From SAR86 cluster bacterium AG-422-E19 (lineage in GTDB: Bacteria; Pseudomonadota; Gammaproteobacteria; Magnimaribacterales; AG-339-G14), in contig QCMR01000001.1 of the NCBI GenBank assembly GCA_003213595.1, forward strand, positions 218,015 to 262,301: 44,287 nt of DNA. The letters run 5' to 3'. Below, piece by piece: positions 7,765 to 44,287 of the stretch. The first letter of the stretch is position 1, and every line of letters begins with the position of its first letter. The notes below the pieces were generated by a model, which was not told the DNA's origin, did not search any database, and saw only the letters and a list, made by a program, of their open reading frames with translations. A program made the translations under genes and the position numbers.

Positions 7765-8752
7765 TTTAAAAAGAATACAACTTATTGCCTTGCTTGGCAT
7801 TTTTCTGGCTTTCACTGTAGTGGGGCTAGGAGCTTGGACAAGACTAGTTGATGCAGGTTTAGGTTGCCCAGACTGGCCTGGCTGTTATGGTTTTGCCATT
7901 TGGCCTATGTCAGAAACAGAAATTTCTTTAGCCAACGAACTTTATCCAGAAAGAAAATTTGAAATTGAAAAAGCAGTTCCAGAAGTAGTGCATAGATATT
8001 TTGCTGGTTCCTTAGGCCTTTTGATTATTGGACTTTTTCTTTATGCAGTTTTTTCCAAACCGAGAAACTCTTTCATTGTAAAAATAACTTCAACCATGAC
8101 AGCACTTGTTCTGTTTCAATCGTTGCTTGGCTATTTCACAGTAAGTTTAAAATTGTGGCCTCAGGTTGTTACTGCACATTTGCTTGGAGGTTTTGCGACC
8201 ACCACCTTACTTTTTTTAACTTATTTGAAATTAAAAGAAATAAATTTAGGTAACATTAATTATTTTTCTGTATCTAAAAGCACTCTAAGGATTTTAAATA
8301 TAGCTTTTCCAATTTTGATCGTTCAGATAATCCTGGGAGTTTGGCTCAGTTCTAATTATGCAGCTTTGGCTTGTTCAGATTTTCCTCTTTGCAAAGGACA
8401 AATCCTTCCAGATGCAGACTATGTAAAAGGTCTAAATTTTGCTCAAAGAATAGGCCCCGATTATTTAGGGGGACAGCTGGATCATCAATCAAGAGTGGCA
8501 ATTCACCTTGTTCATAGGTTTGGTGCATTAATTGTGACTTTGTATTTTTTATTTTTGGCATATTTATTCGCGAAAGAAAAAAACTATTTTGTTTCAGGTT
8601 TAATTGGCGCCTTGCTTTTTCTTCAACTTGCCTTAGGCATCTCAAACATTATTTATAGACTTCCGCTTTATGTTGCGATTGCGCATAATCTTGGAGCTCT
8701 TTTCCTATTGTTGGGATTATCGTATGCTAGATTAAGGTCTCGTGAATACTGA
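7757..8752 (+). CDS. ctaA: Heme A synthase (COX15/CtaA)
   Basis: Oxidises the C8 methyl of heme O to formyl, giving heme A. The 331-aa protein has about eight membrane helices and the conserved heme-ligand histidines in VVHRYFAG, VTAHLLGG, LVHRFGAL and AIAHNLGAL, plus the N-terminal GAWTRLVDAGLGCPDWPGC signature. The start is TTG at 7757: there is no suitable ATG, and the protein it gives begins at the expected distance from the first helix. It overlaps the preceding gene by 8 bases and cyoE by 11 bases. Confidence 0.94.
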   Translation: MANLKRIQLIALLGIFLAFTVVGLGAWTRLVDAGLGCPDWPGCYGFAIWPMSETEISLANELYPERKFEIEKAVPEVVHRYFAGSLGLLIIGLFLYAVFSKPRNSFIVKITSTMTALVLFQSLLGYFTVSLKLWPQVVTAHLLGGFATTTLLFLTYLKLKEINLGNINYFSVSKSTLRILNIAFPILIVQIILGVWLSSNYAALACSDFPLCKGQILPDADYVKGLNFAQRIGPDYLGGQLDHQSRVAIHLVHRFGALIVTLYFLFLAYLFAKEKNYFVSGLIGALLFLQLALGISNIIYRLPLYVAIAHNLGALFLLLGLSYARLRSREY

Positions 8753-9641
8753 AGCAATTTCTCAATCTCAAAAGTTTCCAATATCTGGATACTTAAAGCT
8801 TACAAAACCTTCCATAATTTATTTATTGGTTTTGACTGCAGCAACTGCAATGTTTTTAGCAGACGGTTTTGCTGGAGACTTATCAAAAGTTATCTTCGGT
8901 CTTCTTGGCATAGCCTTAATCGCCTCATCCAGTGCAGTTATCAACCAAATCTTAGACGTTGAAATTGATAGCAAGATGGCAAGAACCAAAAATAGACCTT
9001 TAGTTAAAGGAGAAATTTCAGCTATTAACGCTAAAGTATTTTCTGGAATCTTGTTAGCCTCTGGAACGCTACTTTTATTAATTTTCAACAATTTTTTGAC
9101 TCTCTTGCTGACTTTGCTTACATGGGCTTTCTATTCTTTCTTTTATACGAAAATTCTTAAGTTTGCCGGAACGCAAAATATTGTCATTGGCGGTCTTGCT
9201 GGCGCAATGCCTCCACTTCTTGGTTGGGCTGCTATTACCAATTCAATCGATGCTCTGCCTTTATTAATGGTTTTAATTATTTTTATCTGGACGCCACCTC
9301 ACTTTTGGGCTCTGTCTATTAACAGAAAAGAAGACTACGTTGCGGCTAAGATTCCAATGATGCCAGTTATCAAAGGAACCGATTACACAAAGTTACAAAT
9401 TGCACTTTACTCGGTTTTATTAGCTGTCATTTCAATATTTCCTTTCGCAACTGGTTATCTTGGTGGATTTTATTTCATAAGCGCAACAGTCCTTAATGCT
9501 GGGTTTTTAGGTTTGGCAGTTGCACTGATTTTTGATAAAAGAAATAAATTAGCCTTGCCTTTATTTCTTTACTCGATTGTTTTTTTAACAATATTGTTTA
9601 TTTGTATGGCCCTTGATAAATTAATTCCAATTCAATTATGA
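8742..9641 (+). CDS. cyoE: Protoheme IX farnesyltransferase (heme O synthase)
   Basis: Transfers farnesyl to heme B to make heme O, the substrate of CtaA. The UbiA-family signature is clear in 299 aa: N68xxxD72xxxD76 followed by MARTKNRP (79-86), then the second acidic region (SINRKEDY) after WTPPHFWALS. Eight to nine membrane helices are expected. The start is GTG at 8742, inside the end of ctaA, and the stop overlaps the SCO gene by ATGA, so the three genes look translationally coupled. COX10/ctaB is a synonym. Confidence 0.95.
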   Translation: MNTEAISQSQKFPISGYLKLTKPSIIYLLVLTAATAMFLADGFAGDLSKVIFGLLGIALIASSSAVINQILDVEIDSKMARTKNRPLVKGEISAINAKVFSGILLASGTLLLLIFNNFLTLLLTLLTWAFYSFFYTKILKFAGTQNIVIGGLAGAMPPLLGWAAITNSIDALPLLMVLIIFIWTPPHFWALSINRKEDYVAAKIPMMPVIKGTDYTKLQIALYSVLLAVISIFPFATGYLGGFYFISATVLNAGFLGLAVALIFDKRNKLALPLFLYSIVFLTILFICMALDKLIPIQL

Positions 9642-10276
9642 GCAATAATAAATCTATAAGAATTACCGTTGCTTCTTGTCTCCTTATTGTATCGATGGTT
9701 GCAGGTCTTTTCGTTTACTCAACTATTTCGCCGAAAGAACTTACTGCAGAAGAATACAAACAAATAGGATTTTATAAATTAGTTAGGACCAGACAAATCA
9801 ATAATTTTGAGCTAATTGAAGGAGAAACTGAGTTTTCAAATAATGATTTGGTTGGCTCTTGGGATGTATTATTCCTAGGTTTCGCCTCTTGTCCAGATAT
9901 GTGCCCAATGACGATGAAAAAAATGGCAATGGCCAATAAAAATCTGTCTGAAGAGGTATCTTCAAAAGTAAACTTTAGAATGATTTCAGTTGATCCAGAT
10001 CGCGATACACCAGAAAAAATACAAGACTATGCAAGGGCATTTAATCCATCCTTTACTGGCATTACGGGAAATATAGAAGTTATTTACAAGCTGGCCACTG
10101 ATTTGACCTTGCCTTTCGTCCCTGTAGTAGGCTCTGATAACTCAAACTATGACATGGACCACAGTATGAATCTCGCTGTTATTGATCCAGATGGAAATTA
10201 CTTTGGTTTTTTTAAGTCGCCTCACACTCCCGAAAAAATGGCAGAAGTTTTAGAAAGCATAGTTTCTTTTAATTAA
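9638..10276 (+). CDS. SCO1/SenC copper chaperone for the CuA site
   Basis: SCO proteins load copper into CuA of subunit II. The 212-aa protein has an N-terminal membrane anchor (about 8-28), the copper motif CPDMCP (C85, C89) in FASCPDMCPMTM and the distal ligand H175 in DMDHSMNLAVIDP. The VDPDRDTPE segment (about 118-126) is also typical. It is the last gene of the cox operon. No intrinsic terminator is obvious in the 86 bases before the next gene. Confidence 0.94.
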   Translation: MSNNKSIRITVASCLLIVSMVAGLFVYSTISPKELTAEEYKQIGFYKLVRTRQINNFELIEGETEFSNNDLVGSWDVLFLGFASCPDMCPMTMKKMAMANKNLSEEVSSKVNFRMISVDPDRDTPEKIQDYARAFNPSFTGITGNIEVIYKLATDLTLPFVPVVGSDNSNYDMDHSMNLAVIDPDGNYFGFFKSPHTPEKMAEVLESIVSFN

Positions 10277-10320
10277 GCATATTTATTCCAAAAGTTAAAA
10301 ATATTATATATAGTCTTTAT

Positions 10321-10335
10321 TGAGAATTATTCTCA
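10321..10335. promoter_or_regulatory. Fur-type iron box upstream of the small membrane protein pair
   Basis: TGAGAATTATTCTCA is a perfect 7-1-7 inverted repeat matching the Fur/DtxR-type pattern TGATAATNATTATCA with one changed base per half-site. It lies 7 bases downstream of a TATAGT -10-like hexamer (10309-10314) and 28 bases before the ATG at 10363, a position at which bound Fur-Fe would block RNA polymerase. Iron regulation is inferred from the motif alone. Confidence 0.65.
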
Positions 10336-10362
10336 TAAAAATTTCTTTGGGAGGAAAAAAAT

Positions 10363-10776
10363 ATGGATCAATTTCAAATAGGAATGCTCTATAACGGGCT
10401 ATTTACGTCAAATGCTATCTTTGCCGGCGTCTTCATATTTCTTTTATGGATGATGTTTAGAGGTGCAAACCAATCACACGAAAGAGGCGCAAACCTAATT
10501 CAAAAAATTCTAGGTTCAGTAGTCTCGCTTTGTGTAATTGCTTTTAATTTAAATATGTTTAGCCAAGTTTTTGCGAATGTAAACAATTATGCATACAGCT
10601 TATCTCAGCTAGATGAAATTAGCGAAGCTGGACAGGCATTTGTAAATGCGACCGGTGCTACAGAGGTTATTACTCCATCAATTATCCCTGGCGATCCAAT
10701 CAGTATAGTTTTCTGGGCCATAATCACTCTGACTTTGTTAGCAACGATTTGGACGGCTCCGGAGCCAAAATCTTAA
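10363..10776 (+). CDS. Unrecognised three-helix membrane protein, first of a tandem pair
   Basis: I do not recognise this 137-aa protein. It has three hydrophobic helices (about 10-32, 47-68 and 112-131), no signal peptide, and a polar loop before the third helix (about 80-108). The gene has a strong GGGAGG Shine-Dalgarno. The next gene is a paralogue: both share helix spacing, an FR-x-(A/S)-N/K segment after helix 1, a GN/AN-x-I-x-K-x-(L/V)-G segment before helix 2 and YSL(S/G)QL after it. It follows a Fur-type box and ends in an intrinsic terminator, so it may be expressed separately under iron limitation. A cofactor site is not evident: His and Cys are scarce. Confidence 0.85.
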   Translation: MDQFQIGMLYNGLFTSNAIFAGVFIFLLWMMFRGANQSHERGANLIQKILGSVVSLCVIAFNLNMFSQVFANVNNYAYSLSQLDEISEAGQAFVNATGATEVITPSIIPGDPISIVFWAIITLTLLATIWTAPEPKS

Positions 10777-10783
10777 AAAATTT

Positions 10784-10815
10784 AAAAAGGGAGATTTATC
10801 CTCCCTTTTTTTTAT
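10784..10815 (+). terminator. Intrinsic terminator between the paralogous membrane genes
   Basis: A 10-bp perfect stem, AAAAAGGGAG (10784-10793) and CTCCCTTTTT (10801-10810), encloses a 7-base loop and is followed by more T residues. It lies between the two small membrane genes, so the second gene would depend on read-through unless a promoter hides in the remaining 30 bases. Confidence 0.85.
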
Positions 10816-10843
10816 TTCATTTTAAAAATTTAAGGAGGAAAAA

Positions 10844-11260
10844 ATGGAAGAAATGCAAATATGGCAATTATTAGCTACGCAAATAATTGGGTTTTCAATA
10901 TTTTTAGCTGGAAATGCTTTTTTAATATGGGTTGCGTTTAGAGTATCTAAATCTGTAAATGAAACTGGAGGGAATATTATTTTTAAATTAGTCGGAACGG
11001 TTTTTGGTTTAGGTATAGTCTGGAATGGACTTATCGTTCAAGGCTTTGTTGGAAATGTAGTTCAAAGTGCTTCTTACTCACTTGGCCAGCTTAAGGAAAG
11101 TGGAGGCGAAGTATCGGCTTTAGCCGAAAGCTTCATGTCTGCTAACGGAACAGATTTACCTGAATTTAGCGTTGTACCAGACGTAATTGGAATTATATGG
11201 TGGATATCTGTTTTAGCAATTATATTGCTGCCAATTTGGGGGCCTAAGGCTTCTGACTGA
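10844..11260 (+). CDS. Unrecognised three-helix membrane protein, second of a tandem pair
   Basis: A 138-aa paralogue of the preceding gene with the same three-helix layout (about 12-33, 48-70 and 113-132) and shared YSLGQL segment near 78-83. Identity is low, so the duplication is old. Its Shine-Dalgarno is near-ideal (AAGGAGG, about 10832-10838). No promoter is visible between the upstream terminator and this RBS, so expression probably comes from read-through. Function is unknown; a membrane complex formed by the two paralogues is a possibility only. Confidence 0.85.
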   Translation: MEEMQIWQLLATQIIGFSIFLAGNAFLIWVAFRVSKSVNETGGNIIFKLVGTVFGLGIVWNGLIVQGFVGNVVQSASYSLGQLKESGGEVSALAESFMSANGTDLPEFSVVPDVIGIIWWISVLAIILLPIWGPKASD

Positions 11261-11271
11261 AAAACAGATAT

Positions 11272-11304
11272 AAAAAAAGAGGAGGCTTAGCCTCCTCTTT
11301 TTTT
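11272..11304. terminator. Bidirectional intrinsic terminator
   Basis: A 15-bp perfect inverted repeat, A7-GAGGAGGC (11272-11286) and GCCTCCTC-T7 (11290-11304), with a 3-base centre. The A-run and T-run on either side let it work on both strands: it ends the small-membrane-protein unit on the plus strand and the pckA-gshA-qor unit on the minus strand. Confidence 0.9.
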
Positions 11305-12274
11305 ATATTTCAATTACGACCTTTCCAGTAGCAGTTCTATCTTCTAAAGATTTTATTGCCTCGACCGCCTGATCTAAAGAATAGCTTTTGGTAATTTCTG
11401 GTTTTAATTTACCTTCAGTATGCAAAGCAAACAATTCTTCAAAATTTTTAGCATTCTCTTCAGGCTCTCTTCCAGTAAAACTTCCCCAGAAGACACCTAC
11501 AATTGAGCAGCCTTTTAAAAGGGCTAAGTTAGTTGGAACTTTAGGAATTCCTGCAGGAAATCCAATAACCAGTACTCTGCCTTTCCAGTTTACACATCTC
11601 ATGCATTGCAAAAAGATATCTCCACCAACGGCATCATAAATCACGTCCGCACCAAGGCCATCAGTTAATTCTTTTACTTTTTCTTTGAGTTCGCCATCTC
11701 CATAGTTGACTAAATCATCAGCACCTAATCTTTTAGCAATATCTAATTTTTCTTGATTACTAGCAGCAGCAATAACTCTGGCACCCATCGCTTTACCAAT
11801 TTCTATGGCTGTTGTACCAACTCCGCCTCCTGCACCTGTTACTAAAAGCGTTTCCCCCTTCTTTAATTCTCCTCTTTGTTTTAAAGCATAGTATGTCGTT
11901 CCATAGTTAAGAGGAAAAGCTGCACCATCTTTAAAATCCATTGACTCAGGTAACGGCATTAAAGTAGCTGCATAAGCAGATGTTTTTTCTGCTATCCCGC
12001 CATTACCGACCATTGCAATCACCCTATCTCCTTCTTTCCAATCAGAAACGCCTTCACCTACTTCGGAAATAACTCCAGCAATCTCACCTCCTGGAGAAAA
12101 GGGAAAGGGTGGTTGAAACTGATATTTTCCTTGCACAATTAAGACATCCGGAAAACTTACACCAGCAGCTTTAACATCAACTACAACCATTCCTGGTTCT
12201 GCTCTGGGATCTTCTATCTCTTCTACCTTGTGTGAATCTACTGGACCAAATTCTCTACAGACATATGCTTTCAT
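11303..12274 (-). CDS. NADPH:quinone oxidoreductase-like (MDR superfamily) enzyme
   Basis: A 323-aa medium-chain dehydrogenase/reductase without the zinc-ligand pattern of alcohol dehydrogenases, hence quinone-reductase-like. Features are the N-terminal GroES-like domain with AAGVSFPD and PGGEIAGVI (about 61-70), the Rossmann motif GAGGGVG (147-153) and a C-terminal ATGKVVIE. Such enzymes reduce quinones, enones or enoyl thioesters with NADPH; the substrate cannot be set from sequence. It is the last gene of the minus-strand pckA-gshA-qor cluster and ends in the bidirectional terminator. Confidence 0.85.
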   Translation of the reverse strand: MKAYVCREFGPVDSHKVEEIEDPRAEPGMVVVDVKAAGVSFPDVLIVQGKYQFQPPFPFSPGGEIAGVISEVGEGVSDWKEGDRVIAMVGNGGIAEKTSAYAATLMPLPESMDFKDGAAFPLNYGTTYYALKQRGELKKGETLLVTGAGGGVGTTAIEIGKAMGARVIAAASNQEKLDIAKRLGADDLVNYGDGELKEKVKELTDGLGADVIYDAVGGDIFLQCMRCVNWKGRVLVIGFPAGIPKVPTNLALLKGCSIVGVFWGSFTGREPEENAKNFEELFALHTEGKLKPEITKSYSLDQAVEAIKSLEDRTATGKVVIEI

Positions 12275-17673: not shown

Positions 17674-18527
17674 AATTAAAGCTGTATCACGCTAAATGGT
17701 CTTTGTGCAGCCAAATGGTTCGTGTTGCCTTGGAAGAAAAAGGACTTTCTTATGAAAGCAATTTGATAAAACTTTGCGATCAATACCCAGAGGCAGAAAA
17801 CCTTTCTCCAGAATATCTTGCAATCAATCCAAAAGGCATTGTGCCTTCATTAGACTTGGATGGCGAAATAGTCACAGAAAGCACAAACATTATCAAAAAA
17901 TTAAATTCTATTTCTGGTGAAATCGACATGGATTTGTGGCCATCAGACGTAGATCAAGAGAAACTTAATACTTGGGTAGAAGATACCACTCTAACTGACG
18001 GCGTTCCTTTAGGGAAAACTTTAGGTACTGCAATACCGCCTTTCTCCATAATTCTTATAAATTTTATGGTGAAAAAATATTTATCTATTTTTCAAGCTAT
18101 TAAAGTCTTTTGGAAACATCCCTTGAGAGAAAGAGGACGTTTTTTCTTAGTCATGAAATTTTTCAATATTCAAAAGCCAGTTGCAGCCAGATGCTACAAA
18201 GTACTGGCAAAAAGCTTAATTGAAATTGAAAAAAATCTAGAAAATTCTGGTCCTTATTTTTTAGGAAAATTTTCGCATATCGACATAAACTTGATGTGTT
18301 GTTTTCATAGGTTAACGGACGTAAAGTTAGAAAAGATTTTAGAAATTGATGAGTTACCAAATATAAAAAAATATTGGGAGCTACTAAAGAGCAGAGAAAG
18401 TTACAAAAAAGGAATCTTAGATTTTTTTGGAGAAAAAGAAAATGGCGATATCGAAAGCGTCTTTGGAAAAAAAGACTCAATGCATTTAGCACCTCTCACT
18501 CAGATGATTAAAAATTATGAATCCTAA
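17670..18527 (+). CDS. Glutathione S-transferase-like protein
   Basis: A 285-aa cytosolic protein. The N-terminal thioredoxin-like domain reads KLYHAKWSLCSQMVRVALEE (2-21), then NPKGIVPSLDLDG with the cis-Pro (about 54-66) and the glutathione-binding TEST segment. The C-terminal helical domain contains GPYFLGKFSHIDI, matching the GST N-capping/hydrophobic staple region. Unusually, a hydrophobic basic segment of about 50 residues (about 115-165) sits between the domains, like the insert of ganglioside-induced (GDAP1-type) or other atypical GSTs. It overlaps the SGNH gene by ATGA and the next gene by 11 bases. Substrate unknown. Confidence 0.8.
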   Translation: MKLKLYHAKWSLCSQMVRVALEEKGLSYESNLIKLCDQYPEAENLSPEYLAINPKGIVPSLDLDGEIVTESTNIIKKLNSISGEIDMDLWPSDVDQEKLNTWVEDTTLTDGVPLGKTLGTAIPPFSIILINFMVKKYLSIFQAIKVFWKHPLRERGRFFLVMKFFNIQKPVAARCYKVLAKSLIEIEKNLENSGPYFLGKFSHIDINLMCCFHRLTDVKLEKILEIDELPNIKKYWELLKSRESYKKGILDFFGEKENGDIESVFGKKDSMHLAPLTQMIKNYES

Positions 18528-20037
18528 ATATTTAATTAGTATTTTTGTTGTAACCTTTTTCGCCTGTGGAGGCGGCGGTGGAGGTGGAAGCTATAGTCCA
18601 GCATCTTCATCTTCATCCTCATCATTATCAATTCTTTATGACCCTCCTACGTTCTGCGCACTAACAGAAACCGGAGGAGTTACAGACTTTGCCACAAGCT
18701 CAGACAACTGCGGTCAGACTCTAACAAGCTTCTATACGGAATTAATGAATCTCGGCATTAGTACAACAACTAATTTTGAGCAGAATAGTTTTAATAATAC
18801 GGAAGCTTTAAGACAAGTTTACCTAGACTCTTCTCTAGGTGAAACTGAAAACATTATGGTCGCACAAGGCCTTAGTTATGTCGCTGAATTAGTAGGAGCA
18901 TTTGATATTTATTTTTTTGGTGTTGGCGACAGTGTTTCTGCATACGAAAGCGATATCAAACCGAAATGGTGTACTGCTTTTGGTGATAGCGCCTGTGATG
19001 ATTCTTCTGGAACTCTTAAGCATGTCCGAGATCTTGTAAATAGTACCGATGCTTTAGCTAATACAGTTGGTTTTTACGCAGATCAGTCTGGTGCTCCTAA
19101 AAAAGCTTTTTCTATAGCGCAAGGTTTAAATGACAGAAGTGCACTAAACAAGATTTTGTACCATGAATATGTTCACATTTGGCAACATGCTGTAACTTTT
19201 GGCATGAGCACTCCAGAAAATGTTAGAAGAATGCCAGCGTGGTATTCCGAAGGGGTTGCTCAGTATGTCGCCCAGATTTATTGTATTGAAAGAGAAGTGT
19301 TCGGTTGCCTGTTTCGTTGGAACGATATTATGATCGGTAAGTGGACTCAAGCAAGTGATTATTACAATGCTGATGCAGCAAATCGGTTAACGGCCAGTTT
19401 GGCCAGTTTGCAAAATTCCGCCATGGCTGAATGGGCGGTTGCCTACATGGTTGAGAAGGCCGAGGCAAACGGCAAGTCCAATGGGGAACAATCAGCGATT
19501 ATTGATCTCACTTTGGAAGTTGTTGAAAAAGGCTGGGCTAAAGCATTTGAAGACAATATTGGAATGACGCAAGAACAGTTTTACACCGATTTTCATAATG
19601 CCATTGCTGAAAATGATCAGGCAGCTCGGGTTGCAGCTCTAAAAGATAAAAATTTTTCCACGCGAGTTTCATTTTCTTTTAATTTTTCAGTCTTGCAATT
19701 AACAGGAGCGTCAACTTCAAGCTCATCATATGGCGGAGGAACTCCTTCTGCGGGCAAACGAACAATTTATTTTTATGATAACGACACCAGCACCATACCT
19801 TCTTATCAAGGAAGTACTTGGCCATATGTTGTTTCTACTGGAGAGATATCCAAAGCAGCTGCGGTCACTGCAACTGTTGCTAAAAATGCAAATGGTAACT
19901 ACGTTTTGATAAATAACAAGCCAGTTTATCAGTATGCCTCCGACAACGATTCATCAAAACTTGGGGCTAAAGTTAACGATTGGAAGGCAATTAGCATTGA
20001 CGGAACAGCCATCCCTAGAGAAAGGGTAGGCCCATAG
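18517..20037 (+). CDS. Lipoprotein with HExxH (gluzincin-like) zinc protease signature
   Basis: A 506-aa exported lipoprotein: signal peptide with lipobox-like FFAC (Cys17), then a Gly/Ser linker (18-38). The middle has HEYVH (216-220) followed 25 residues later by AWYSEGVAQY (241-250), the HExxH...E arrangement of gluzincin metalloproteases, with Glu245 as probable third zinc ligand. The last ~95 residues (GKRTIYFYDNDTS..., NGNYVLINNKPVYQYASD, VNDWKAI) resemble the COG4315/PF03640 secreted lipoprotein repeat with its YTFDxD and NGKPLYxFxxD pattern. Protease activity is inferred. It overlaps the GST gene by 11 bases. Confidence 0.75.
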   Translation: MNPKYLISIFVVTFFACGGGGGGGSYSPASSSSSSSLSILYDPPTFCALTETGGVTDFATSSDNCGQTLTSFYTELMNLGISTTTNFEQNSFNNTEALRQVYLDSSLGETENIMVAQGLSYVAELVGAFDIYFFGVGDSVSAYESDIKPKWCTAFGDSACDDSSGTLKHVRDLVNSTDALANTVGFYADQSGAPKKAFSIAQGLNDRSALNKILYHEYVHIWQHAVTFGMSTPENVRRMPAWYSEGVAQYVAQIYCIEREVFGCLFRWNDIMIGKWTQASDYYNADAANRLTASLASLQNSAMAEWAVAYMVEKAEANGKSNGEQSAIIDLTLEVVEKGWAKAFEDNIGMTQEQFYTDFHNAIAENDQAARVAALKDKNFSTRVSFSFNFSVLQLTGASTSSSSYGGGTPSAGKRTIYFYDNDTSTIPSYQGSTWPYVVSTGEISKAAAVTATVAKNANGNYVLINNKPVYQYASDNDSSKLGAKVNDWKAISIDGTAIPRERVGP

Positions 20038-20633: not shown

Positions 20634-22535
20634 ATGAGTGAAAATAACCATCACCCTTTAAATATTCTCAGCGCTTCTGAAATAAGCGATGCAGTCTCTG
20701 TTCTTAAAAAATCTAACAAAGATCATGAAAATTCTTCTTTTAGTTATATTTCCTTAAGCGAACCAGATAAAAAGTTGATCAAAGAAAACTCTAATTTAGA
20801 AAGAATCGTAAAAATAGTTGGAGTTGACAAAAAATCCATTGGTTTTGAAGCAGAAATAAATATTTCAAAAAAAGAACTTTTAACAGAAGAAAAAATTTCC
20901 AATAAAGCAGGGCCGACTTATACCTTAGCTGAGATCTTTGGAGCCATTGAGCTAACTATGGGAGATGAAAATTATCGAAAGGCTCTAGAAAAAAGAGGTA
21001 TAAAAGATTTGAGTCTTATTCAAATAGATCCATGGCCTGGCGGAGGTTTTGTTAATAAGAATATTAAAAATGGTAATAGGGCTTTAAGAGCAATCTCTTT
21101 TCTAAAAGATAGTGATAAGGACAATGCTTACGCTAGACCCATTCAAGGCTTAATTGCTCATGTTGACCTAACAGAAAAAAAAGTCGTCGAAATTGAAGAT
21201 CATGGTGTAGTGAAAGTTCCAGAAGCTTCCGCTAGATATGATAAAGACGGTCAAGAGACACTCAGAGAAAACCCAAAAGAAATCGCCATCACTCAACCTG
21301 AAGGTGTAGGATTTTCAGTACAAGATAACTTAATTTCTTGGGAAGGCTGGAAACTAAGAGCTTCCATTGATCCTATTGAGGGCTTAGCTTTACATCAAGT
21401 CTCATTAAATGAAAGGCCAATTTTTTACCGAGCAGGTTTGTCAGACATGGTAGTGCCTTATGGTTCATCTGATCCAATGCATTGGTGGAAAGCAGTTCAC
21501 GATGGCACCGAATATGGATTTGGTACCATGACAAATTCCTTAACTTTAGGATGCGATTGTCTAGGTGAGATATATTATTTAGACGCTCACAAGCTAGCTT
21601 TTGATGGTTCTGTCGAAACCATTGAAAATGCAATTTGTATCCATGAAGAAGATTACGGAGTGCAATGGAAACATAATGATGCCACCCAAATGGGGTACAA
21701 CGAAGTAAGGCGATCGCGTCGTCTTGTAGTGAGTTCTTTTGCTACCATTGGCAACTACGATTACGGTATTTTTTGGTACTTGTATTTGGATGGCACAATT
21801 CAATTAGAGATAAAGCTTACTGGTGTAGTAGGCATAAGCGCGTATCACGAAGATATCCATAAATCAGGACAAGATTTCAAAATTTCTCCAGAATTAGCAT
21901 CACCAATTCACCAGCATCTATTTAATGTAAGAATTGATTGGGATTTGGATGATGGTGAGAATCAGTTATTTGAAACAAACGTTGAGCCCTTGCCAATAAA
22001 TAATGCGAATCCAGAAGGAACTCAATTTCAAGCTGTTTCGTCGCATCTAAAAAAAGAGAGCGAGGCGCAAAGGAACATTGCTCCAGAAAAAAGCCGTACA
22101 TGGAAAGTTGTGAACCCCAATAAGCTAAATAAAGTTGGTTCACCAACAGCTTATAAAATTCTTTATGGCAATACACCAACCCTCTTATCCAATCCTAATT
22201 CTCCACCGGGAAAAAGAGCTGCATTTGCGAAATACAATATCTGGGCAACTCCGTTCCAAAACGAAGAGAGATGCGGAGGCGGCAGACATACGGTGATGCA
22301 TTCTGGAGAGGGAGGATTAGAAGAGATTACTTCACAAGACAGAAATATAAGTGAATGCGACTTGGTGACATGGCTTACTTTTGGGGTAACCCATTTACCC
22401 AGGCCGGAAGACTGGCCGGTAATGCCTGTAGAATATTGCGGATTTCATCTAATACCAGTTGGTTTTTTTGATCAAAATCCAACGATTAATCTTCCTCCAA
22501 GCTGCTCATCTAAGTCAAAAAGCAATAAGCAATAA
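20634..22535 (+). CDS. Copper-containing primary-amine oxidase (TPQ enzyme)
   Basis: Oxidatively deaminates primary amines to aldehyde, NH3 and H2O2. The 633-aa length fits bacterial copper amine oxidases. The topaquinone precursor is Tyr375 in TIGNYDYG. Copper ligands are H426 and H428 (PIHQHLF) and H605 (GFHLIP), and the catalytic base is probably Asp290 in HDGTEYG. The family stretches GCDCLGEIYYLDAH, AICIHEEDYGVQWKH and THLPRPEDWPVMPVE are nearly textbook. No signal peptide is present, so the enzyme appears cytoplasmic, unlike periplasmic E. coli TynA. It is followed 8 bases later by the alkylsulfatase-like gene. Confidence 0.95.
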   Translation: MSENNHHPLNILSASEISDAVSVLKKSNKDHENSSFSYISLSEPDKKLIKENSNLERIVKIVGVDKKSIGFEAEINISKKELLTEEKISNKAGPTYTLAEIFGAIELTMGDENYRKALEKRGIKDLSLIQIDPWPGGGFVNKNIKNGNRALRAISFLKDSDKDNAYARPIQGLIAHVDLTEKKVVEIEDHGVVKVPEASARYDKDGQETLRENPKEIAITQPEGVGFSVQDNLISWEGWKLRASIDPIEGLALHQVSLNERPIFYRAGLSDMVVPYGSSDPMHWWKAVHDGTEYGFGTMTNSLTLGCDCLGEIYYLDAHKLAFDGSVETIENAICIHEEDYGVQWKHNDATQMGYNEVRRSRRLVVSSFATIGNYDYGIFWYLYLDGTIQLEIKLTGVVGISAYHEDIHKSGQDFKISPELASPIHQHLFNVRIDWDLDDGENQLFETNVEPLPINNANPEGTQFQAVSSHLKKESEAQRNIAPEKSRTWKVVNPNKLNKVGSPTAYKILYGNTPTLLSNPNSPPGKRAAFAKYNIWATPFQNEERCGGGRHTVMHSGEGGLEEITSQDRNISECDLVTWLTFGVTHLPRPEDWPVMPVEYCGFHLIPVGFFDQNPTINLPPSCSSKSKSNKQ

Positions 22536-22543
22536 GGGTTTTC

Positions 22544-24262
22544 ATGAGCGTAGAAGATTCTTTCAAGCCAGGAGTTACACAAACAGGCCCAAAGGGTCAA
22601 TTGGCGCATCCTACAACCCTGGAACATAGCAAACGTTTAGAAAAAAAGCTTTATAAAGTTGGCAATAATGCCTGGTCTTTAATTGGCAATGGTCTTTCCA
22701 ACCAATCTTTTGTAGAAGGACCTGAAGGTTTAATTTGTATTGACACCGGAGAAAGTAATCAGGAGATGGCTGCAGCCTTGAAGGAGGTAAGAAAAGAAAC
22801 CCAAGCTCCAGTTGTTGCATGCATTTACACACATTTTCACTATGTTGGCGGTACTCAAACACTTGTCGATGAAAATAAAGATTTATCAATTTGGGGACAT
22901 GATGGTATTCAAGCTAACTTAGACAGATTTGGTGGAGAGGTTGCACCCAGAGTAACGAGAGGGTTGGCTCACCAGTTCGCGACTTCCATGCCCCAAGAAG
23001 GACCTGACGGCATTGTTAATTTAGGGCTGGGAAATTTTTTTCGAAATCCAGAACATGCTCCTTTCACCAACGGCTATATTCCACCGAAACATACATTCAT
23101 TGAGCCAACAAAAGCAAAAATAGCTGGTTTAAAAGTAGAATTTTTTCCAGCCCCATCCGATGCGACCGATTCCATAACAATTTGGTTCCCTGATTTAAAG
23201 CTAGCCATAAACAATCTTCTGTGGCCGGTTTTATTCAACGTTTTTGCTATTAGAGGAGAAGAATATCGAGATCCTAGAATTATGATGAAAGGCTTGGATC
23301 AACTAGCTGAACTTGAAGCAGAAAATTTAATTGGCGCTCACGGTCCGCCATTTTCTGGCCAAGAAGAAATAAAAAAAATAATTATAAATTATCGAGATAC
23401 TTTGCAATTTTTGTGGGACCAAACGGTGAGATGTGCCAACAAAGGGCTTACTCTAAATGAGGCCATTAGTACAATCAAACTACCGAGCCATTTTCAAGAG
23501 CATTACACTACTCAACAGTTATATGGTGTCGTAGAGCATCATGTCAGACAAATTTATTCTGGTCTTTTTGGATGGTTTGATGAGGACGAGGCAAATCTTT
23601 TTCCAGTGCCCTCTCCAGAAAGGTCTTTACGCCTAATAGAAGGCTTTGGTGGAATTGAAAAGGTGAGGGCAATTATTGATTCCTCTCTAGAAGAAGAGGA
23701 TTTTCGTTGGGCGATAGAACTTTCCTCTTGGCTGGTGCGTTCAAATTTAAATGCTCAAGGAATTGCAGATGCAGGAGAACTCGAAGATCGAAAACGTTTA
23801 GCTGCTGCTCTAAGAGGAGTAGCTTATACAACCTCAGCTGCAAATATAAGGAACTGGTGTATTACTCGGGCTCTTGAGTTGGATGAGTCTCTAAATTTAA
23901 GTCGTTTCAGGAAACATCGTTTCAATAAAAGGGAACTGTCCAGGCGTACCCCTATTGATTCATTAAAGCTATTAAGGGTTCTATTGATTCCTGAAAACGC
24001 AGATGCTTATACGGAAACATTACAATTTAATTTTTCTGATGATGAAAAAATTTTTTATTCTATTAGAAACTCTGTAGCAGTTATTGATAAAAAATCTGAA
24101 AGAAGTCTTTCTATGACTTTATCTTCCGATACTTGGTATGATCTTTTGAGTATGAAAAAAACTCTTTCAGAAGCTGAAGAAGAAGCTTTGGTGGAAATGA
24201 ATAATTCTAAGGAGATAAGAAAATTCTTTTCTTGTTTTGACCTTGAATCTTTAAATAGCTGA
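22544..24262 (+). CDS. Metallo-beta-lactamase-fold, alkylsulfatase-like protein with altered metal site
   Basis: A 572-aa protein with the BDS1/SdsA-type layout: an MBL domain (about 35-290), an alkylsulfatase-type helical dimerisation domain (about 320-440, VVEHHVRQIYSGLFGWFDEDEANLFP and ELSSWLVRSN) and an SCP2-like C-terminal domain (about 460-570). The MBL metal motif is degenerate: residues 96-104 read THFHYVGGT instead of THxHxDHxGG, so the Asp-His pair is missing, and the GTE/AEN glutamates are replaced by PSDATD and INN. His97, His99 and His266 (GAHGPP) remain. Activity as a sulfatase is doubtful; a different hydrolase or a non-catalytic role is possible. Probably co-transcribed with the amine oxidase. 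Confidence 0.85.
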   Translation: MSVEDSFKPGVTQTGPKGQLAHPTTLEHSKRLEKKLYKVGNNAWSLIGNGLSNQSFVEGPEGLICIDTGESNQEMAAALKEVRKETQAPVVACIYTHFHYVGGTQTLVDENKDLSIWGHDGIQANLDRFGGEVAPRVTRGLAHQFATSMPQEGPDGIVNLGLGNFFRNPEHAPFTNGYIPPKHTFIEPTKAKIAGLKVEFFPAPSDATDSITIWFPDLKLAINNLLWPVLFNVFAIRGEEYRDPRIMMKGLDQLAELEAENLIGAHGPPFSGQEEIKKIIINYRDTLQFLWDQTVRCANKGLTLNEAISTIKLPSHFQEHYTTQQLYGVVEHHVRQIYSGLFGWFDEDEANLFPVPSPERSLRLIEGFGGIEKVRAIIDSSLEEEDFRWAIELSSWLVRSNLNAQGIADAGELEDRKRLAAALRGVAYTTSAANIRNWCITRALELDESLNLSRFRKHRFNKRELSRRTPIDSLKLLRVLLIPENADAYTETLQFNFSDDEKIFYSIRNSVAVIDKKSERSLSMTLSSDTWYDLLSMKKTLSEAEEEALVEMNNSKEIRKFFSCFDLESLNS

Positions 24263-24271
24263 TAGTATTTT

Positions 24272-24451
24272 GTGAAGAGAATAAATCCTGACACAGGCAA
24301 GCCTTTTGAAATTGGTGACCCTAGACCTAAGTCTGATATTCAAGATGGAAAGGTCTTTGGAGGATATTACACTTCTCTTTATAAAGAACGTCCTCAATCT
24401 GGAGAATACTTTGAAGAATTTTGGGTATTGGAAAGTTCTTTAAATTCTTAG
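24272..24451 (+). CDS. Small hypothetical protein (59 aa, GTG start)
   Basis: A frame from GTG at 24272 to TAG encodes 59 aa beginning KRINPDTGKPFEIGD and ending YFEEFWVLESSLNS. The composition looks protein-like (balanced, aromatic-rich, GGYYTSLYK). RINP-x-TG-x-PF-x-x-GD openings occur, from memory and unverified, in short environmental and phage proteins. It starts 9 bases after the MBL gene and ends with a 4-base convergent overlap with the reductase gene. No Shine-Dalgarno is seen, so coupling to the upstream gene is likely if it is translated. Confidence 0.5.
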   Translation: MKRINPDTGKPFEIGDPRPKSDIQDGKVFGGYYTSLYKERPQSGEYFEEFWVLESSLNS

Positions 24452-42270: not shown

Positions 42271-44287
42271 TCAGTTAGAATTTAACGGTTCTTCAGTTTC
42301 TTGAACATTGTCCATTATCGATCTGATTGTAAAAACTCCTCCAGGGTTTGGTACGTTTGGAATGTACCATATAGGACTAGACCAAGCTCGTTCTTGAAAA
42401 GTCTTAGGTAAATCTTCTCTGGGTTTCAATCCTACTTTGATTGCATCCCAAGTGGTCCAAGGACAACTAGGGTTTTCTAAAACTCTTACGTAGTAAAAGG
42501 CCTTTTCATTTTTATTGAAATCAGGATCTGTCCAAACGGTTTTAAGTTCAGCCGATCCTACATCATTTGATATTTCACAAGTTTCGGTATTAACCGTAGC
42601 TCCATTATCTGGACATCTATTTGTAATTGGATTTACTTTAGCTCCATTAGAACAAACTACGTCATAGACAACTTCTTTTGGCGCGGCGTCAAATTGATTG
42701 ATCGTACCTTTTATAATTTGAACTCTTTGCAGCGGCGCTCCATTTTTTGCTCTTTGCGCCCAAACGAAAAAGTTTGGAACATTACTGCCTTTGGAAACTA
42801 AGTCTGAACCCATTGGAACTCCGTTTCGATAAGCCTCGCTGATGACGTTTTCACCATTCAGGTCTAACTCATTCATACGATAGCCACCAAAGAAACGAAC
42901 TGAAATCCTGTTACCACTGGTAGCAAAAGTCTCTTTTCTTCGTAAGGCACTGAAAATTGACTCTCGAGTGTTTTCTTCTGCCCACACTGCAGCCAAGCCA
43001 GACGCACCCCATTGTGTAAATCCGGACTCTAAATAACTTCCTTCTTGACCTTCATAGATTTCAATTGGTAAACCAGTATCTCCAAAATTACTCTGACGTC
43101 CTAAAATAGTCTGCTGATAATCGGTTACTGGTACTGAACCTCTTCCTTCAGGAGTAGCATCGATGATTCCAATTTTTGACCAAAAATTAGACTCATCATA
43201 TGAAGAAGCTCCAGTATGTGTGTCGGACGAGCCAATTAAACCAAATTTATATGGATTTCCTCGATCTTCCCATTCAAGAACCATACCTCTGAAAAATGCA
43301 TCTCGTACATAACCACCTGCAGGCAGAGAGTAAGTTCTAGGAAAGCTTCCTACTCTTGAATTCATGATCCCAAAATCTGCCCACTCATCATTTGGCGATA
43401 AAAGAGGGTGAGTATCGCTTGTGCCTTTTACCTGAGTCATTTCAACGATAGGCTCGTTCCTCATTCGCAATGCGGAATATGTTTTATCAATAGGCGAACC
43501 ATCAAATTGTTCTACTTCAAACATTTGTCCATTTGATCCATTTGAATTGTGCGGCATGGCAAGAGAATCTATACCCTTATCTCTAAGCTTATCCATCCAT
43601 GACCATAAATCTTCTGGATTAATAGAGTCGATTCTAGTCCATGGCCTTTCAGGCGCTTTAGATCCTTCAAAGATTACATTCCTATGTAAATTTCCATTTT
43701 CAACATCCGTAGAAGTTGTAAATTCATAACCAATAAAAGTTGTGAAATTTCCTGGATCATTATGCTCATTAGCAGATCTTGCTACATCTGCCCAAGATGA
43801 TTTATGCGTTTCATCATCAAAAGACTGGACAGCTAATTGAATGTGATTAGATAGAAAAGCTTGTATAAATTTTGGATGATACCAAGGATAAGGATTTGCG
43901 ATTGCTTCAATGGCTCCTCTAAAGCTACCAAGTCGATATGCAGAAGACTCTAAAGTCTGGTTTTCCGGAGCGTTTATATTGTGATAAATCTCTGCACCAG
44001 GAAGGGTGGAAGCATAGGTTGAGGTATCAGCCCAAGCTTGAATCATGCCAAGAAAAAAACCATGATCAGTTACTGCATAAAAGTCCAATGGCTCTCTTAG
44101 TGTCATATCAAAACCCAAGGCATGCTTAATAGTTTCTCCTTTTGCATATCTGTAAGCATCATCTGGAGAGGCGGTTGTGCCAAATACGTATGCATCAAAT
44201 GAATATCTAGTGTGAACGTGAAGATCACCAAAGTAGGCATTCCTTAATTCGTTATAGTCTTTGCTGGGACTAGGCGCAGGTTTATCT
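42271..44287 (-). CDS. DUF3604 protein, 5' end outside window
   Basis: 671 codons plus stop are visible; the frame runs open to the window edge, so the N-terminus is missing. The start of the family domain is there: NAYFGDLHVHTRYSFDAYVF-type text with HxH at about 44220-44212, then YAVTDHGFFLG, both DUF3604 hallmarks related to PHP metal phosphoesterases (HxH and TDH). Later GSSDTHTGA and YVRVLENPSCPWTTWDAIK are also typical. A metal-dependent hydrolase role is inferred. Internal TTG and ATG codons near 44118 are not the real start. Confidence 0.9.
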   Translation of the reverse strand, partial: DKPAPSPSKDYNELRNAYFGDLHVHTRYSFDAYVFGTTASPDDAYRYAKGETIKHALGFDMTLREPLDFYAVTDHGFFLGMIQAWADTSTYASTLPGAEIYHNINAPENQTLESSAYRLGSFRGAIEAIANPYPWYHPKFIQAFLSNHIQLAVQSFDDETHKSSWADVARSANEHNDPGNFTTFIGYEFTTSTDVENGNLHRNVIFEGSKAPERPWTRIDSINPEDLWSWMDKLRDKGIDSLAMPHNSNGSNGQMFEVEQFDGSPIDKTYSALRMRNEPIVEMTQVKGTSDTHPLLSPNDEWADFGIMNSRVGSFPRTYSLPAGGYVRDAFFRGMVLEWEDRGNPYKFGLIGSSDTHTGASSYDESNFWSKIGIIDATPEGRGSVPVTDYQQTILGRQSNFGDTGLPIEIYEGQEGSYLESGFTQWGASGLAAVWAEENTRESIFSALRRKETFATSGNRISVRFFGGYRMNELDLNGENVISEAYRNGVPMGSDLVSKGSNVPNFFVWAQRAKNGAPLQRVQIIKGTINQFDAAPKEVVYDVVCSNGAKVNPITNRCPDNGATVNTETCEISNDVGSAELKTVWTDPDFNKNEKAFYYVRVLENPSCPWTTWDAIKVGLKPREDLPKTFQERAWSSPIWYIPNVPNPGGVFTIRSIMDNVQETEEPLNSN

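Follow-up and report, generated by a model that had tools for sequence, protein, structure and literature searches.

The window, a stretch of 44,287 nucleotides from SAR86 cluster bacterium AG-422-E19 (genome size 1.1 Mb), encodes a 572-residue alkylsulfatase-like protein (22544..24262, + strand). A Pfam scan of this protein finds three domains, each above its own cut-off: the metallo-beta-lactamase (MBL) domain Lactamase_B, the dimerisation domain Alkyl_sulf_dimr (PF14863, E 2.1e-26; residues 303-447, 23450..23884, +) and the C-terminal domain Alkyl_sulf_C (PF14864, E 3.6e-06; residues 476-567, 23969..24244, +). Lactamase_B and Alkyl_sulf_C pass narrowly, at 23.3 versus 22.7 and 27.7 versus 27 bits, respectively. 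In a sequence search of the PDB the closest entries are YjcS-type proteins, Pisa1, SdsAP and SdsA1. Together with the three domains, these matches confirm the preliminary description, which had proposed an alkylsulfatase-like protein with the full three-domain architecture.

An AlphaFold2 model was built from a 39-row alignment, from which L042 (a broken copy), L063 (with undetermined residues), L071 and L072 (both partial, lacking the motif region) and L073 (a non-member) had been removed. The model has a mean pLDDT of 79 and a pTM of 0.74; pLDDT falls below 50 at residues 1-22, 132-166, 233-238 and 343-353, and residues 233-238 lie inside the anion (sulfate-binding) loop. Alkylsulfatases head the fold comparison (VIA Z 25-29), and VIA Z to MBL-fold chains is 17-29 among the matches listed. 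The rmsd to the top fold matches is 13-21 Å over the aligned length, which suggests an unreliable domain arrangement in the model.

The most unusual feature of the protein is its metal-binding motif. Residues 96-104 read THFHYVGGT (22829..22855, +): H97 and H99 are present, the Asp-His pair of HxHxDH is deleted, and Y100 is fixed. The two-residue deletion (HFH--Y) that the preliminary description had read here recurs in every one of the 40 family loci with sequence for this region (L031-L070, fetched through similarity to the window protein), giving 41/41 alignment rows with the window protein itself. Proteins with this motif are referred to below as HxHY, and their relatives with the intact motif as HxHxDH. 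A normal HxHxDH elsewhere in the fold, which the preliminary description had named as grounds for refuting it, occurs neither in the window protein nor in any of the 22 HxHY sequences checked.

The remaining ligand positions were read from a residue table of 45 HxHxDH and 22 HxHY sequences, the latter comprising the 21 representatives used in the tree and L129, which was too short for it. H97, H99, R237, R242 and H266, the position of the site-2 His (23339..23341, +), are identical in 22/22 HxHY and 45/45 HxHxDH sequences, and Y100 is found in all 22 HxHY. Position 206 (23159..23161, +), which aligns with the third site-1 ligand of Pisa1, YjcS and SdsAP, is Asp in 22/22 HxHY, versus Glu in 44 and Asp in one of the 45 HxHxDH. 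Position 224 (23213..23215, +), where the dinuclear site has its bridging Glu/Asp, is Asn in 21/22 HxHY, versus Asp in 29 and Glu in 16 HxHxDH; its alignment is in some doubt, given that the sole HxHY exception (Ser in L133) aligns with Asn in a further alignment with 16 HxHY rows, and that the acid of L074, L108 and L117, which the table has at this position, falls in a gap column there. In a 12-row alignment spanning 27-80% identity to the window protein, H97, H99, Y100, H119, D206, D209, N224, W227, P228, N232, R237, R242 and H266 are all invariant. H97, H99, Y100, H119, D206, N224, R237, R242 and H266 are also retained in 16/16 HxHY rows that include Vibrio sequences and L133; among these rows, Asn replaces D209 in L139 and L140, and L133 has Pro at 232. 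Two residues considered as replacement ligands were rejected, H119 as it is also His in 30/45 HxHxDH relatives, and D209 for its replacement by Asn.

The seven ligand positions comprise three that are identical, one with a conservative change (Glu to Asp) and three that are lost. By this pattern, site 1, the 'histidine' site, is kept with a Glu to Asp change, and site 2 has lost its Asp, its His and the shared bridging acid while keeping H266. The preliminary description had stated that the protein lacks most of the metal-binding residues, a slight overstatement given that four positions are identical or still acidic. It was right that the two site-1 His and His266 remain (22/22 HxHY), and the conservation that it had proposed to look for among homologues with the motif is found at H97, H99, Y100, D206 and H266 (22/22). 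Its view that both Glu ligands are changed holds in that Asp206 and Asn224 stand in their places, but the change to Asp206 is conservative and fixed. A His-His-Glu metal site has been described in SdsAP (PMC5426288). An excerpt of the same paper says that Pisa1 has an Asp in the histidine site; this sentence was not counted in support of D206 because the alignment to solved alkylsulfatases disagrees, placing Glu at the histidine-site position of Pisa1 and Asp at the bridging position.

The second conserved element is the sulfate-binding loop, whose core aligns with residues 232-242 (NVFAIRGEEYR; 23237..23269, +). In SdsA1 the loop Ala298-Arg317 binds sulfate, and N, R, G and R are its most conserved letters, at 98-99% (PMC5066984). 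By alignment, N232, R237, G238 and R242 are the equivalents of SdsA1 N307, R312, G313 and R317. The reduced core N-x4-RG-x3-R is present in 20/21 HxHY and 44/45 HxHxDH representatives. The full published S3 loop pattern is matched by 0/21 HxHY, the window protein included, versus 35/45 HxHxDH.

HxHY is the minority form in the sampled genomes of the phylum, of two classes and of Vibrio. Within the SAR86 genus, 14 of the 16 genomes examined carry the gene, one copy being broken; G001 and G005 have no HxHY gene. In an even sample of the phylum, 11/398 genomes matched at E <=1e-80, four of which carry HxHY (G000, G698, G622 and G876, the last with two adjacent copies), and the reported loci of the others are HxHxDH. 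In a sample of 369 genomes from the host's class, 19 matched at E 1e-30; 20 loci were read besides the window's own, 19 being HxHxDH and one not covering the motif region. A sample of 289 genomes from a second class gave seven matching genomes, three with HxHY (L106, L129, L133), and the 21 HxHY representatives come from two proteobacterial classes. Matches were found in 28/99 Vibrio genomes; the 34 matches represent at least 12 loci, and 11 readable motifs comprise four HxHY and seven HxHxDH. Among plasmids, 166 records matched and three were inspected, one with HxHY and two with HxHxDH; the HxHY record, from Vibrio fortis, is very likely the same as G622. Simple gene calling overlooked the family gene in L064, L118 and L122. 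Two divergent cases stand out. L119 carries two adjacent, diverged HxHY genes (8225-11712, -) that are 37% identical, as if they formed a heteromer or a subfunctionalised pair. The Vibrio loci L139 and L140 encode strongly diverged HxHY proteins with a YSHEHY motif and WGWFPN in the loop, which retain the equivalents of H97, H99, Y100, D206 and H266.

The HxHY proteins also form a single group by descent. A maximum-likelihood tree was computed from 66 representatives (21 HxHY, 45 HxHxDH), which remained from 103 ORFs of at least 400 residues after removal at 80% identity. A branch supported at 100/100, and recovered in 100% of 200 bootstrap trees, separates all 21 HxHY from the HxHxDH representatives. 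The tree does not place the root and some branches are long, L133 being the longest, so the direction of change is inferred: it is taken as loss of the Asp-His pair because HxHxDH is called a hallmark of the superfamily (excerpts of PMC7785958 and PMC5066984). The ligand loss appears to have happened once, and its result to have been kept clade-wide with fixed substitutes. Comparison of the window gene with relatives of equal length gave dN/dS of 0.037-0.076 in 9/11 pairs, the other two being saturated; in five of the nine, dS is above 1 and the ratio is rough. In line with the preliminary description, these low ratios, the single clade and the fixed residues speak for a gene that is not decaying. 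One copy, in a metagenome-assembled genome of the SAR86 genus (L042/G003), is broken; its frame ends near residue 490, with a TGA in the remainder.

The genes around HxHY differ between lineages. In the window, a gene for a copper-containing primary-amine oxidase (20634..22535, +; Pfam) ends 8 bases upstream and includes TIGNYD, which we take to be the TxxNY[DE] cofactor motif of copper amine oxidases. At 13/13 SAR86-genus loci the HxHY gene is immediately preceded by an amine oxidase gene, TxxNY[DE] being present in each, and the enzyme is encoded in 14/14 genomes of the genus with an HxHY gene and 0/2 without. In other genera of the same family, 9/12 genomes have an amine oxidase; a search of them with the HxHY alignment at E 1e-80 found nothing, weaker matches aside. 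Nine bases downstream of the HxHY gene is a small conserved ORF (59 aa, GTG start; 24272..24451, +), which ORF comparison found at 12 of the 42 loci searched, at 75-98% identity and always within the SAR86 genus. Elsewhere in the window are a 506-residue protein (18517-20037, +) whose family matches are all below cut-off, and a DUF3604 protein (42271-44118, -; PF12228, E 1.2e-190) beside an amidase gene. Among the 13 SAR86-genus loci, L038 alone has a like-sized ORF (503 aa) in place of the 506-residue protein, judged by position and size only.

Of the 29 loci outside the SAR86 genus, 27 have a visible downstream gene (L064 was placed by position). Directly 3' of the HxHY gene, 16/27 have a formylglycine-type sulfatase gene at gaps of -50 to 15 bases; the CSPTR motif is present in 16/16, and the one sulfatase scanned matched PF00884 at E 2e-61. 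An isocitrate-lyase cluster occupies this position at 6/27 loci, and neither is found at 5/27. At L044, L046, L047 and L048 the HxHY gene and the sulfatase gene that follows it come directly after a nitrile hydratase pair, identified by cluster membership, one representative each having been scanned for the isocitrate lyase and nitrile hydratase clusters (L044 for the latter). Genes near the L119 pair resemble sulfopyruvate/phosphonopyruvate decarboxylase subunits and GMC oxidoreductases, below curated cut-offs. The host's own genome has two S1 sulfatases at other sites. There is no constant partner gene, as the amine oxidase adjoins HxHY only in the SAR86 genus. The neighbourhood names no single pathway; the partner varies between a sulfatase, isocitrate lyase, neither of these and, in SAR86, the amine oxidase.

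The reading favoured here, with somewhat less than even confidence, is that HxHY is a one-metal offshoot of the type III alkylsulfatases, which would use the former 'histidine' site on an anionic, most likely sulfate-ester, substrate. One metal ion would best fit the ligands kept (H266 and, in site 1, H97, H99 and D206) and those lost, in agreement with the mono-metal enzyme that the preliminary description had thought possible. The ion would be held by H97, H99 and D206 with H266 nearby, the second metal being gone, and N232, R237 and R242 would hold the anionic group; the compound hydrolysed would probably be an organic sulfate that is small or hydrophobic. Cleavage may proceed by metal-bound water or by water activated by H266 or Y100, two residues that may serve as a further ligand or in acid-base catalysis. 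The enzyme is proposed to be cytosolic and catabolic; inspection by eye revealed no signal peptide. The earlier suggestion of a new reaction gains little from these results, because the retained loop core and the sulfatase genes nearby hint at a substrate that may, as before, be a sulfate ester. Water activation, at the least, must work differently in a one-metal version, given that Pisa1 relies on a binuclear zinc cluster for this step, with protonation of the sulfate leaving group by a histidine (PMC3920027). Several observations weigh against the one-metal reading. According to an excerpt of PMC5426288, the His-His-Glu zinc, the very one proposed here as kept, is the more easily lost in SdsA-type enzymes. 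Confidence in the AlphaFold2 model is low for residues 132-166 and 233-238, none of the 21 representatives has the full S3 loop pattern, and the neighbours vary.

It is unlikely, but conceivable, that the site is still dinuclear, with Y100, H119 or other residues replacing the Asp-His pair and the bridging acid to form a second metal site with H266. H266 is fixed despite the loss of its metal partners, as are Y100 and H119, which would fit such a site. However, Asn makes a poor bridging ligand, H119 is probably no new ligand given its presence in most HxHxDH relatives, and D209 is not retained in L139 and L140. The loss of three of the seven ligand positions could instead point to a metal-free pseudoenzyme, or a binding or regulatory protein that has kept its fold and dimer, and other MBL-fold proteins have lost their metal, for instance a Synechocystis flavodiiron protein (PMC7785958). 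This possibility is also given a low probability: a metal-free scaffold would have no need to preserve the remaining His and Asp ligand positions, yet they stay the same in proteins as distant as about 27% identity. Hardly worth entertaining is a decaying gene, or an ordinary alkylsulfatase misread through errors in sequencing or assembly. Among the 14 copies known from the genus, one is indeed broken, but the same in-frame deletion in 40/40 loci from separate genome records, the low dN/dS and the single clade rule this explanation out.

The choice of metal raises a further alternative, in which H97, H99 and D206 form a 2-His-1-carboxylate site whose mononuclear non-heme iron activates O2 for oxidative cleavage of sulfur compounds, whether organic sulfates or others. 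HxHY proteins have an invariant His-His-Asp set, and this alternative is worth testing because persulfide dioxygenases, also of the MBL fold, hold one Fe at site 1 (PMC7785958). It is nonetheless a doubtful one, since Fe cannot be told from Zn by the ligands alone, the full set of MBL motif residues is retained in persulfide dioxygenases but not in HxHY, and apart from the HxHY family itself no gene cluster recurs across all loci. In its most far-reaching form, to which a similarly small chance is assigned, the proposal is that HxHY is a mononuclear (2-His-1-Asp, site 1) class derived from dinuclear alkylsulfatases, possibly iron/O2-dependent, which would open organic sulfates in a manner unlike S1-S4 and serve streamlined ocean bacteria beside an amine oxidase or a formylglycine-type sulfatase.

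HxHY is a natural case in which part of the ligands of a hallmark two-metal centre is gone and the variant is retained across a clade. It allows tests of how a dinuclear hydrolase turns mononuclear, and of whether sulfate-ester chemistry needs no more than site 1 and the sulfate-binding loop. It also makes the label 'alkyl sulfatase' unsafe for HxHY proteins when given from domains alone. In the open-licence literature, no account was found of alkylsulfatases without the Asp-His pair, and nothing on alkyl sulfatase with SAR86 or on alkylsulfatase with copper amine oxidase; the sole match for SAR86 and amine oxidase concerns a Chloroflexi nitrite reductase.

Among known systems, the closest are the type III (S3) enzymes SdsA1, Pisa1, SdsAP and YjcS, with which the window protein shares the three-domain layout, H97, H99, H266 and the N/R/G/R loop core. 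It differs from them in having HxHY without Asp-His, Asn for the bridging acid and Asp for the site-1 Glu; it is 20-27% identical to S3 alkylsulfatases in structural alignments and does not match their full loop pattern. Of the S3 criteria in an excerpt of PMC5066984, the catalytic MBL, dimerisation and C-terminal domains are present (Pfam, fold matches). The protein was not filed as an S3 alkylsulfatase because three others speak against it: the HxHxDH signature is missing, the loop pattern is missing, and identity to SdsA1 is below the required minimum of 30% over about 600 residues, judging from fold-based alignments (20% to entries 2cfu, 2cg2 and 2cfz). At the level of the MBL superfamily the fold is present (Lactamase_B over its cut-off, VIA Z 17-29), and the motif HxHxDH, named as the hallmark in an excerpt of PMC7785958, is absent. 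By similarity, HxHY belongs to the alkylsulfatase branch, where it is classed as a distinct subfamily.

HxHxDH relatives from the same order as the host (L015-L030) are of similar length and about 28-32% identical to the window protein, with which they have in common the histidine at position 266 and the loop's RG-x3-R; unlike HxHY, they keep HNHGDH, Glu at 206 and Asp at 224. The persulfide dioxygenases (ETHE1-like) share the MBL fold with HxHY and have neither the dimerisation nor the C-terminal domain of alkylsulfatases. They are absent from the 14 PDB sequence matches of the window protein and from the 50 fold matches listed, which are all other MBL chains; their single metal at site 1 is only proposed for HxHY. 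A mono-zinc form of the MBL fold is also found in the subclass B2 metallo-beta-lactamases (CphA, Sfh-I), which reach a VIA Z of about 18 to the AlphaFold2 model and whose motif is NxHxDR (PMC7785958). The two groups differ in the site affected: subclass B2 alters site 1, whereas HxHY loses site 2.
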